A stretch of DNA of 64,000 bases from Chloroflexota bacterium (GTDB lineage Bacteria; Chloroflexota; UBA6077; CF-72), in the NCBI GenBank assembly GCA_019239775.1, contig JAFAZN010000363.1, positions 1-64,000 of the forward strand, in the 5' to 3' direction. The notes below the pieces were generated by a model. That model was not told the origin of the DNA, made no database searches, and worked only from the letters and a program-made list of their open reading frames with translations. A program made the position numbers and the translations under genes. Position 1 is the first letter of the stretch; each line of letters starts with the position of its first letter. Shown piece by piece: positions 22,048 through 25,801 of this stretch.

Positions 22048-22545
22048 GTGACTACAGAAGCCCCTGTAACGGTCTACACGACCCCCACTTGACCCTGGTG
22101 CTCGCGAGCGAAGGAGTTCCTTCGCAAAGAGGGCGTTCCGTTCGAGGTACGCGATGTGTCGGTCGACGCCGATGCGGCGCGCGATATGGTGCAGCGCACT
22201 CGCCAGATGGGCGTGCCGGTCATTGCCGATGAGCAGGAAGCCATCGTTGGCTTCGACATGCCAAGGCTACAGCGCATGGCCGCGCGGCATCGACGCGGCG
22301 GTGGTCTTGGGCTGAAAGTCACCGATTTCAAGGACGGGCCTGGCGCGTATGTTGGCGGCGTGCGCGAGGACTCGCCTGGTGCGCGCGCGGGCGTCGAAGT
22401 TGGCGACGTGATCCTGGAGCTTTCAGGTCGAGCCGTCTCGGGCGTCGCGGATCTGGAGCAGATCGCGGCAAGACGGCCGCCAGGCCAGCCCACGAGCATG
22501 ACCGTCCAGCGCAACGGCGAGACGCGCACGCTGATTCTGCGCTAG
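22048..22545 (+). CDS. Glutaredoxin-PDZ fusion, probable selenoprotein (in-frame TGA = Sec)
   Basis: Read through an in-frame TGA at 22090-22092, the frame encodes 165 aa from GTG 22048, the only start between that TGA and the upstream in-frame TAA at 22027. The N-terminal domain is glutaredoxin: VTVYTTPT-U-PWCSRAKEFL, with Sec at residue 15 replacing the first Cys of CPWC. GVPVIADEQEAIVGFD follows, containing the cis-Pro motif (GVPVI) and the glutathione-binding GFD. A Gly-rich hinge leads to a C-terminal PDZ domain (VREDSPGARAGVEVGDVILEL). The ORF track starts at 22156 and loses the active site. A SECIS-like hairpin follows the TGA. Expected role: thiol/selenol redox; the PDZ domain may bind a protein C-terminus. 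Confidence 0.85.
22101..22131 (+). promoter_or_regulatory. SECIS-like hairpin downstream of in-frame TGA
   Basis: Starting 15 bases after the TGA, GCGAAGG and CCTTCGC form a perfect 7-bp stem closed by the tetraloop AGTT. Outside it CTC/GAG adds three more pairs beyond a small internal loop. Bacterial SECIS elements are stem-loops in the coding region just 3' of the UGA, with a G (often GU) in a small apical loop at a similar distance. The fit is structural; I computed no energies. Confidence 0.75.
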
Positions 22546-22904: not shown

Positions 22905-23378
22905 ATGGACGAAGAACGCATCCAACGCATACATCGCATCCTCTCCTGCTCCGAGGCGCTCGTGCATGGCTTCAATCCCAGTCGCGATCGCGCCTGGCTG
23001 CGGCTGGATCTCACCATGCCGCAGCTCAAAGCACTGATTTACGTCACCAAGAACCAGAACTCGACGAGCGGCCAGATCGCCGCGAGCCTGGGTGTTGGCC
23101 TCTCCACCATTACCGGCATCGTTGATCGGCTGGCCGAACAAAGCCTGGTCACTCGCCGCGAGGATCCGCGCGATCGACGCGTCACGCGCGTGCTGCCGAC
23201 TCCGACTGGCGCCGAGCTGGTCGACGAGCTGATCCAGTACCGCAACGAGGTGGTGACCGCGATCCTGTCGCAGCTCGACCCCGACCAACTGCAAGTGGTG
23301 GAGTCCGCCTTTCAGTATCTCCTCGACGCCGCCGCCAAGCTCGACCGCGAGCGCAATCACGCAGGAGCCGTGGCATGA
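22905..23378 (+). CDS. MarR-family transcriptional regulator
   Basis: 157 aa from ATG 22905 with GAAGGA just upstream; the ORF track adds 22 unlikely residues overlapping the promoter. Winged-helix domain: LTMPQLKALIYV, recognition helix region GQIAASLGVGLSTITGIVDRL, wing VTRREDPRDRRVTRVLPTPTG. MarR proteins repress efflux operons and release DNA on binding drugs or phenolics. The stop overlaps the next gene (ATGA), so regulator and pump are co-transcribed, which suggests autoregulation. Confidence 0.93.
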   Translation: MDEERIQRIHRILSCSEALVHGFNPSRDRAWLRLDLTMPQLKALIYVTKNQNSTSGQIAASLGVGLSTITGIVDRLAEQSLVTRREDPRDRRVTRVLPTPTGAELVDELIQYRNEVVTAILSQLDPDQLQVVESAFQYLLDAAAKLDRERNHAGAVA

Positions 23379-25801
23379 CTCATCTCAAACTCATCGGTGC
23401 AACCACAGCTGTGCTCATTTTCGTAGCTGGCTGCGGCCCTATCGCCGTGCCCGGCAGCTCCAGTGGGTCGCAGGCGCAGGCCATCAGCGTGCCGGCCGCG
23501 ACGGCGCAGCATGGGGACATTCAGCAAACCCTGACCTATAGCGGTGACGTCCGCGCCAAGGACCAGATCACCGTGTTGCCGAAGGCATCGGGTCGCGTAC
23601 AACAGGTGCTCGTCGACATCGGCTCTTCCGTGCACGCGGGCGACGTGGTAGCGGAGCTGGAGCAAGACTCGCCCGAAATCGCCGTCCTGCAGGCACGCGC
23701 CAATCTGGCCGCGGCGCAGGCAAAGTTGGCAACCATCCAGGCTGGCGCCAAGCCAGACGACGTGGCCGCCGCACAAGAGGCCGTGGCGCAACAGCAGGCG
23801 CGCCTCGACTCAATGTTGGCCGGTGGGCGCCAGGAAGACGTTGCCGCCGCCCAGGCCGCCGTGGCCGCGCAATCCGCCAAGCTGAACTTAATGCTCAGCG
23901 GTGGTCGCGCCGAAACGGTCGCGCAGGCTCAAGCGGCCGTCGACGCGGCACAGCAGAAGCTCGCGTTGCTTCAAAAAGGTGCGACTGACGATGTGCGCCA
24001 GGCAGCCGCCAGCGCGGTGAGTGCCGACATGGCCCAGGTCACCGCGACGGAAGCCTCGTATGCCGCGTTGGGCGGTACCTCAGCAGCAGACCTGGAGCAA
24101 CTACAAGCCCAGGTTGATGCGCTCCAGGCCCAGGTGAACGCCGGGCAAACGGCGGTGAGCTCAGCCGATGCGGCTCTCCAAAACCAGGTCGGCTCCAGTG
24201 CGGCTGACGTGCAGGCGGCGCAAACAGCGTACGACCAGGCCCAGGCGCAGCTCACGGCTGCTCAGGCGGCGTTGAACCAGGCTCAGAATCCGACGCAACT
24301 CTCAATCGCCCAGGCGCAAGCAGCCCTCACGGCTGCGCAAGCGCAGGAGGCCGGCGCCGAATCGAACCAGACGGCGCTGGAGCAGAAGGCCGCGGGTTTG
24401 TGCGCGCCCTTGATCAGTCCAATCACCGGTCAGGCGTACCAGCAGCCGAACAGTACCGCGTGCGGTGTGGCCAAGAGTGCGGCTGATGAAGCGGTGCAGG
24501 CTGGCAATGCCGCAATCGACGCCGCCCAGGGCCAGCTCGACCAGCTTCGCCGCGGCGGTGCCCCGGCCACGCTGGCGGCAACCCAGGCGCAGGCCACCAG
24601 CGCTCAGGCACTGGTCAAAGCCACCAAGGCGCGGCTCGATGCGCTCACCAACGGTGGTGTGCAGGCACAGCGTGCGCAGCTTCAGGCCGCGCACGATCAG
24701 GCCGTCAGCCAACTCACCCAGGCACAGGACAATTTGAGTGTCGCGCAGGCACGCGTGCAGGCCGCGCAAAACGGCACGCTCGATGCTCAGCGCAAAGCCG
24801 CGCAGGCACAGGTCGACGCCTCCCGTGAGAAGTTGAAGGCGGACCAGGCGCACCTGGACCAGATCTCAGCCGGCCCCCAGGACGAGGACGTGCAGGCGGC
24901 CCAGGACGCGGTCACCCAGGCGCAGCAACAGCTGGCGCTCGCAACACAACCTGCCACGACGCAGGACATCGAGGCGCAGCGCGCTCTCGTCAACCAGGCA
25001 CAGGAGCAGCTGCAGAAGGCGCAGCAGCCCTACACCGACTACGACATCCAGCAGCAACAACACATGGTCGCGCAGGCTGAAGCGCAGCTGCGCGGCCGCC
25101 AGAATCCGTATACCGACCAGGACGTTCAAGCGGCGCAGGCCGGTGTCGATCAGGCGCAGGCTGCGCTCGAGCTTGCACAGCTGGGCGTGCGCGAGACGCA
25201 GGTCGTCGCACCAGTAGACGGCATCGTGTTCGATCGGCAGGTTTCGCCGGGCGCACTCGTTGGACCGACCTCGCCGATCATCACCTTGATCCCACCAGCC
25301 CTCGAAGTCGCAATCAACGTCGACGAGGCGCAGCTGGGCAACGTGACGCAGGGGCAGCAGGTGTCGCTGCAGGTACCGGCCTATCCGGATCAGACCTTCA
25401 ACGGCACCGTCACGGCGGTTGCCCCCGGCATCGATCAGAAAACGCGCACCGCAAGCGTGCGCATCCAACCGCAAGACGATGCGGGTAAGCTGAAGCCGGG
25501 CATGCTGGCCCAGGTCAACATCATCACCGCGACGCGCAGTGATGTGCTGCTGGTGCCGCGTGAAGCAATCGTCGGCACGCCCAGCACCAACGCACCGGCC
25601 ACACTGGTCACGCTGGATGGTGGGCATGCCGCGCGAGTAACAGTTCAGCTCGGGCTGATTGGCGACCGAACGGTCCAGGTCAGCAGCGGTCTGAATGACG
25701 GCCAGGTGGTGGCCGTTGGCAATGCAAACGGGTTGAACACAGGTGACGCGGTCGTCCCGCAGCTGCGGCCGACGCTCGCCTCGACGGTGGGAGTCCAGTA
25801 A
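23375..25801 (+). CDS. Very long HlyD-type adaptor lipoprotein with ~500-residue repeat coiled coil
   Basis: 808 aa. Lipoprotein signal with lipobox FVAGC (Cys about residue 20). A split biotinyl-lipoyl domain opens at GRVQQVLVDIGSSVHAGDVV and closes at VVAPVDGIVFDRQVSPG near residue 610. Between them are ~500 residues of Ala/Gln-rich coiled coil with repeats of the type KLxxLxxGGRxEDVAAAQAAV. A beta-barrel and membrane-proximal region follow (VNIITATRSDVLLVPREAI). Membrane fusion proteins usually carry far shorter hairpins. Probably an extracytoplasmic tunnel or spacer for the downstream transporter. Many Cys-free Ala repeats argue against a misread. Confidence 0.9.
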   Translation: MTHLKLIGATTAVLIFVAGCGPIAVPGSSSGSQAQAISVPAATAQHGDIQQTLTYSGDVRAKDQITVLPKASGRVQQVLVDIGSSVHAGDVVAELEQDSPEIAVLQARANLAAAQAKLATIQAGAKPDDVAAAQEAVAQQQARLDSMLAGGRQEDVAAAQAAVAAQSAKLNLMLSGGRAETVAQAQAAVDAAQQKLALLQKGATDDVRQAAASAVSADMAQVTATEASYAALGGTSAADLEQLQAQVDALQAQVNAGQTAVSSADAALQNQVGSSAADVQAAQTAYDQAQAQLTAAQAALNQAQNPTQLSIAQAQAALTAAQAQEAGAESNQTALEQKAAGLCAPLISPITGQAYQQPNSTACGVAKSAADEAVQAGNAAIDAAQGQLDQLRRGGAPATLAATQAQATSAQALVKATKARLDALTNGGVQAQRAQLQAAHDQAVSQLTQAQDNLSVAQARVQAAQNGTLDAQRKAAQAQVDASREKLKADQAHLDQISAGPQDEDVQAAQDAVTQAQQQLALATQPATTQDIEAQRALVNQAQEQLQKAQQPYTDYDIQQQQHMVAQAEAQLRGRQNPYTDQDVQAAQAGVDQAQAALELAQLGVRETQVVAPVDGIVFDRQVSPGALVGPTSPIITLIPPALEVAINVDEAQLGNVTQGQQVSLQVPAYPDQTFNGTVTAVAPGIDQKTRTASVRIQPQDDAGKLKPGMLAQVNIITATRSDVLLVPREAIVGTPSTNAPATLVTLDGGHAARVTVQLGLIGDRTVQVSSGLNDGQVVAVGNANGLNTGDAVVPQLRPTLASTVGVQ

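Follow-up and report, generated by a model that had tools for sequence, protein, structure and literature searches.

The window, the whole 64,000-nucleotide stretch from an uncultured Chloroflexota bacterium that was analysed here, holds a frame in which a single TGA interrupts a glutaredoxin domain that is followed by a PDZ domain, and a perfect hairpin lies just downstream of that TGA. The question is whether the TGA ends translation or is read as selenocysteine (Sec) under the direction of the hairpin. Comparison of sequences argues strongly for the second reading: with a probability of about 95%, the hairpin would be the bacterial SECIS element for Sec insertion into a 165-residue glutaredoxin-PDZ protein.

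The gene and its surroundings

22048-22545, + strand: predicted glutaredoxin-PDZ selenoprotein gene; GTG start, one in-frame TGA, TAG stop at 22543-22545; 165 residues
22066-22278, + strand: glutaredoxin domain, residues 7-77 (PF00462 over residues 7-60, E 7e-17)
22090-22092, + strand: in-frame TGA codon, predicted to be read as Sec, first residue of the U-P-W-C active site; the same codon is TGA in 31 further relatives and TGC or TGT in 27 others
22108-22114, + strand: 5' arm of the putative SECIS stem, GCGAAGG (sequence, fold, conservation, covariation)
22115-22118, + strand: loop AGUU at the tip of the putative SECIS stem; its G (alignment column 27) and the first U after it (column 28) identical in 32/32 TGA genes
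22119-22125, + strand: 3' arm of the putative SECIS stem, CCTTCGC (sequence, fold, conservation, covariation)
22300-22533, + strand: PDZ domain, residues 85-162 (PF13180, E 5e-13)

The GTG at 22048 is the sole standard start downstream of an in-frame upstream TAA. Reading the TGA as Sec gives the glutaredoxin part the active site UPWC, and the product then combines PF00462 with the U/CxxC active site that characterizes a Sec-glutaredoxin domain. A mechanical gene call reported only a 129-aa PDZ ORF from 22156, and a conventional call would drop the glutaredoxin half of the protein; the Sec reading would correct a gene that standard annotation would reduce to a PDZ-only fragment. No signal peptide is evident in the 165-residue product. 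Upstream, hemL (glutamate-1-semialdehyde aminomutase) ends 71 bases before the gene start, and a MarR-type regulator lies downstream. Both neighbours are kept beside the gene in its nearest relative (L021/L050) and are absent from the examined flanks of more distant relatives, and the neighbourhood therefore says little about function. Further along the window, 23375-25801 encodes an 808-aa RND/HlyD-type adaptor whose coiled-coil part is rich in Ala and Gln, repetitive and unusually long.

The hairpin and the bacterial SECIS model

A sequence-only reading of this DNA had described a perfect 7-bp stem with loop AGTT beginning 15 bases after the TGA, and this is what we find at 22108-22125. It had added three outer pairs; the CTC at 22101-22103 is able to pair with the GAG at 22129-22131 across an internal loop, but only 43% of the corresponding cells are paired in the window's clade, and these pairs do not belong to the conserved element. 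Folding, which had been proposed as a check, gave a minimum free energy of -13.2 kcal/mol for 22101-22131 (z -2.96; 1/200 shuffles as good). A longer stretch starting at 22087 is less striking and only modestly better than its shuffles (z -1.40; 12/200 as good).

The bacterial SECIS model, as set out in the accessible text of PMC13188914, allows an apical loop of 3-9 nt, an upper stem of 4-16 bp, a UGA-to-apical-loop distance of 16-37 nt and an energy of -7.5 kcal/mol or lower, with a G within the first two loop positions that is usually followed by G or U. The window element, with its 4-nt loop, 7-bp stem, distance of 22 nt (22093-22114) and energy well below that limit, lies inside all of these bounds; its A-G-U-U loop follows the G-position rule. 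The earlier claim that distance, small loop and G-T fit the model is thus borne out. The fit is weak evidence, though, because the published limits without the energy limit (stem of at least 4) would accept 72% of the TGA triplets in the window. The Zhang and Gladyshev 2005 consensus, as it appears in PMC13188914 (Fig. 2A), likewise shows a loop of 4 nt whose second position is G and whose next is U, a stem of 7 bp, a distance of 22 nt between UGA and loop, and an energy below -7.5 kcal/mol. All tested features agree with that consensus, and what the glutaredoxin-PDZ family keeps is just a simple stem, an outer helix not being conserved. As a SECIS element, the window hairpin is ordinary.

How often would such a hairpin arise by chance? 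An equally good one, defined as a Watson-Crick stem of at least 7 with SECIS loop and spacing, follows 1.8% of the window's TGA triplets (31 of 1698, both strands counted) and 1.2% of all window positions. When synonymous codons were re-drawn with the protein fixed, stem pairing as good as that of the window gene had p=0.0185. The hairpin is rare by chance, as had been claimed; as the independent support for recoding that the sequence-only reading saw in it, it is suggestive and not decisive by itself. Rfam at curated thresholds found only two tRNAs in the whole window, a search that is uninformative for such short and variable elements.

Selenocysteine machinery of the genome

The genome to which the window belongs (7.2 Mb, 507 contigs, 91% complete) encodes SelA, SelB, SelD and tRNA-Sec. 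The genes for SelA (551 bits) and SelB (344 bits) are adjacent, and the tRNA-Sec (66.7 bits) has a UCA anticodon. SelD (375 bits) contains an in-frame TGA of its own (L131, G000:C231:25653-26582), with an 8-bp stem and loop GUG 33 nt downstream, and the formate dehydrogenase alpha subunit also has an in-frame TGA (L125, G000:C330:25716-26471), with stem GUCCCC/GGGGAC and loop GGUCU 18 nt after the UGA; both stem-loops are given by our own reading. The loops of SelD, formate dehydrogenase and the window gene share G-U or GGU. Since the machinery genes are present and the SelD and formate dehydrogenase TGAs are accompanied by stem-loops, decoding of UGA as Sec by this cell is a well-supported prediction. 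The tRNA-Sec (G000:C11:1919-2012) is on a different contig from selA-selB (G000:C101:39886-43091).

Relatives with selenocysteine and with cysteine

Relatives were sought in 400 Chloroflexota genomes and in the nearest 60, most of which are drafts. A scan of named genomes returned mostly PDZ-only matches from other phyla, which were left out; its sole ortholog was L050, on the same contig as L021. The active-site codon is TGA in 32 genes from 31 Chloroflexota genomes (window gene included) and TGC or TGT in 26 genes that were folded, with a 27th, L118, also Cys. At least one of SelA and tRNA-Sec was found in each of the 31 TGA genomes (SelA in 30/31 and tRNA-Sec in 26/31 at the thresholds used).

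It is these relatives that settle the SECIS reading, because the TGA genes keep the stem and the Cys relatives are without it. The stem occupies identical alignment columns, 15 nt past the TGA, in 32/32 TGA genes; nine of them (L022, L031, L032, L036, L037, L041, L044, L048 and L102) are one pair short. Synonymous re-drawing with the protein fixed gave p<0.05 for stem pairing in 26/32 TGA genes and in 0/26 Cys genes. Two Cys genes, L045 and L119, both unfused, by our count come within one pair of one register (p 0.09 and 0.06). Neither of the contrary patterns named in the sequence-only reading turned up: 0/32 TGA orthologs lack the hairpin, and 0/26 Cys orthologs keep it at p<0.05. Most genomes of the Cys relatives also encode Sec machinery, and the missing hairpin is therefore a property of the gene rather than of the genome.

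Covariation and history of the stem

Compensatory changes among orthologs had been proposed as another check, and they are present at three pairs. The 32 TGA genes use two pairing registers. In the clade of the window gene (KEFLR, 7 genes) seven pairs surround AGUU. The other 25 genes (mostly KEFLS or KGFLS) have eight pairs around a loop of 3 nt, in most cases GUU, and their 3' arm is displaced by one base because a Ser codon TCN, not Arg CGC, follows the Leu. The stem hardly varies in the clade of seven, and the covariation accordingly comes from the 25-gene register. There, pairing holds in 96% of cells and in 39-68% when the register is slid, and cells changed on both sides number 21, against 6.3 in shuffles (reached in 0/500, a count not to be taken as a probability since related sequences are not independent). 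At pair 20-36, C-G gives way to U-A, with Val replacing Ala on one side and synonymous Ser TCG/TCA on the other; at pair 26-30, A-U gives way to either G-C or C-G, with Gly or Ala replacing Glu; and at pair 23-33, A-U gives way to G-C, with Arg replacing Lys and the facing Leu codon changing synonymously between CTT and CTC.

In a tree built from 39 fusion proteins with the hairpin codons excluded, pairs 20-36, 26-30 and 23-33 changed a minimum of 5, 4 and 3 times and the register once. The best tree requires no fewer than 7 exchanges between Sec and Cys, of which 3 lie on well-supported branches. The stem tracks Sec in 39/39 tree rows and in 3/3 independent contrasts on well-supported branches, which all agree and are too few for significance (sign test, p 0.25). 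Some Sec/Cys contrasts fall within one bacterial family (pairs L029/L042 and L094/L097). The codon re-draw test is independent of the tree.

Alternative explanations

Translation could instead truly end at the TGA, or the codon could have decayed; the working gene would then be just the PDZ ORF from the GTG at 22156, and the hairpin a by-product of the constraints that protein and codons impose at A-K-E-F-L-R. A 129-aa ORF does begin there, and equally good hairpins after 1.8% of the TGA triplets in the window are what this explanation would draw upon. It is hard to reconcile, however, with a frame in which the glutaredoxin part is conserved on both sides of the TGA in the 31 other TGA genes as well as in the Cys genes. 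Nor do the residues themselves dictate the stem, as the Cys relatives L027 (CPWCVRAKEFL) and L029 (CPWCNRAKEFL), nearly identical at these residues, choose different codons and lack the stem, and the leucine codon, which in TGA genes is CTT or CTC and matches the opposite arm, is CTT in no Cys gene. We therefore consider a true stop very improbable.

Even less probable is readthrough of the UGA by another route, such as a near-cognate tRNA or UGA read as Trp or Gly, with the hairpin serving as a pause or stability element. One could imagine a hairpin past a stop codon favouring readthrough, but the relatives carry Cys at this codon and not Trp or Gly, and the genome has a full Sec system with TGA at the Sec sites of SelD and formate dehydrogenase.

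Proposed mechanism

Decoding of UGA as Sec through SelB is textbook knowledge. Applied to this gene, SelB carrying GTP and Sec-tRNA-Sec would bind the mRNA stem and its AGUU loop, 22 nt past the UGA, and would bring selenocysteine to the A site of the ribosome, where the UGA lies; the stem would next be unwound by the ribosome and translated as codons (A-K-E-F-L-R). The product would be a dithiol-type glutaredoxin-PDZ protein with Sec as the catalytic, attacking residue of UPWC. Judging from its domains, it is probably a thiol-disulfide reductase, and the PDZ domain probably binds the C-terminus or a loop of a partner or substrate protein. Established SelB-dependent Sec insertion, as summarised in the accessible text of PMC13188914, accounts for every part of this scheme.

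Relation to known selenoproteins

Sec-containing glutaredoxins are already known from the open texts of PMC13188914, PMC1794560 and PMC1088965. The window protein shares with Sec-glutaredoxin (PF00462, UxxC; PMC13188914 and PMC1088965, open texts) the glutaredoxin domain with its UxxC active site and differs from it in having a C-terminal PDZ domain. The model closest to its glutaredoxin part is GlrX_YruB (TIGR02196), at 77.5 bits and below the cut-off of 88.55. Trx7/PDZ (NF041199, CxxU) is likewise a selenoprotein that joins a thioredoxin-fold domain to a PDZ domain, but its redox domain differs and its Sec is at the second motif position; the window protein scores 29.8 bits against a cut-off of 300, through the PDZ part only. 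The Uxx-star selenoproteins (NF041212 and NF041114) have a glutaredoxin-like fold with Sec as well, but the window protein, with its UPWC, falls below both cut-offs (57.2 against 66 bits and 34.5 against 72).

Searched by term, the open texts of two reviews gave Trx7/PDZ (CxxU) as the only PDZ selenoprotein. The open texts of two papers on Dehalogenimonas, also Chloroflexota (PMC4918011 and PMC13390414), describe SelD and formate dehydrogenase as containing Sec; a term search of them found no mention of a glutaredoxin. In the open papers searched by term, the glutaredoxin-PDZ fusion seems to be unlisted as a selenoprotein, and our reading would add it to those of Chloroflexota.

A broader proposal is that this is a widespread, unlisted Chloroflexota family of Sec-glutaredoxin-PDZ proteins, with repeated Sec/Cys exchange accompanied by gain and loss of the SECIS element, one shift of register by one base, and a PDZ domain that supplies defined clients; we judge the odds for it to be about even. 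If true, a selenium redox enzyme would gain specific client proteins through its PDZ domain. The related genes, either Sec with the stem or Cys without it, amount to a natural experiment in how SECIS elements are gained and lost.

Some minor observations concern individual genomes. 'TAG' matches in L094 and L118 had hinted at Sec encoded by UAG, and the hint was rejected, both being Cys genes with TAG elsewhere. In genome G287 the glutaredoxin-PDZ fusion is present twice, once with Sec (L107) and once with Cys (L118). Genome G025 carries the Sec fusion gene L032 and also L048, a glutaredoxin without PDZ whose active-site codon is likewise TGA and which forms a 7-bp stem. Genomes G002, G212, G275 and G337 each have two tRNA-Sec matches above the Rfam cut-off.
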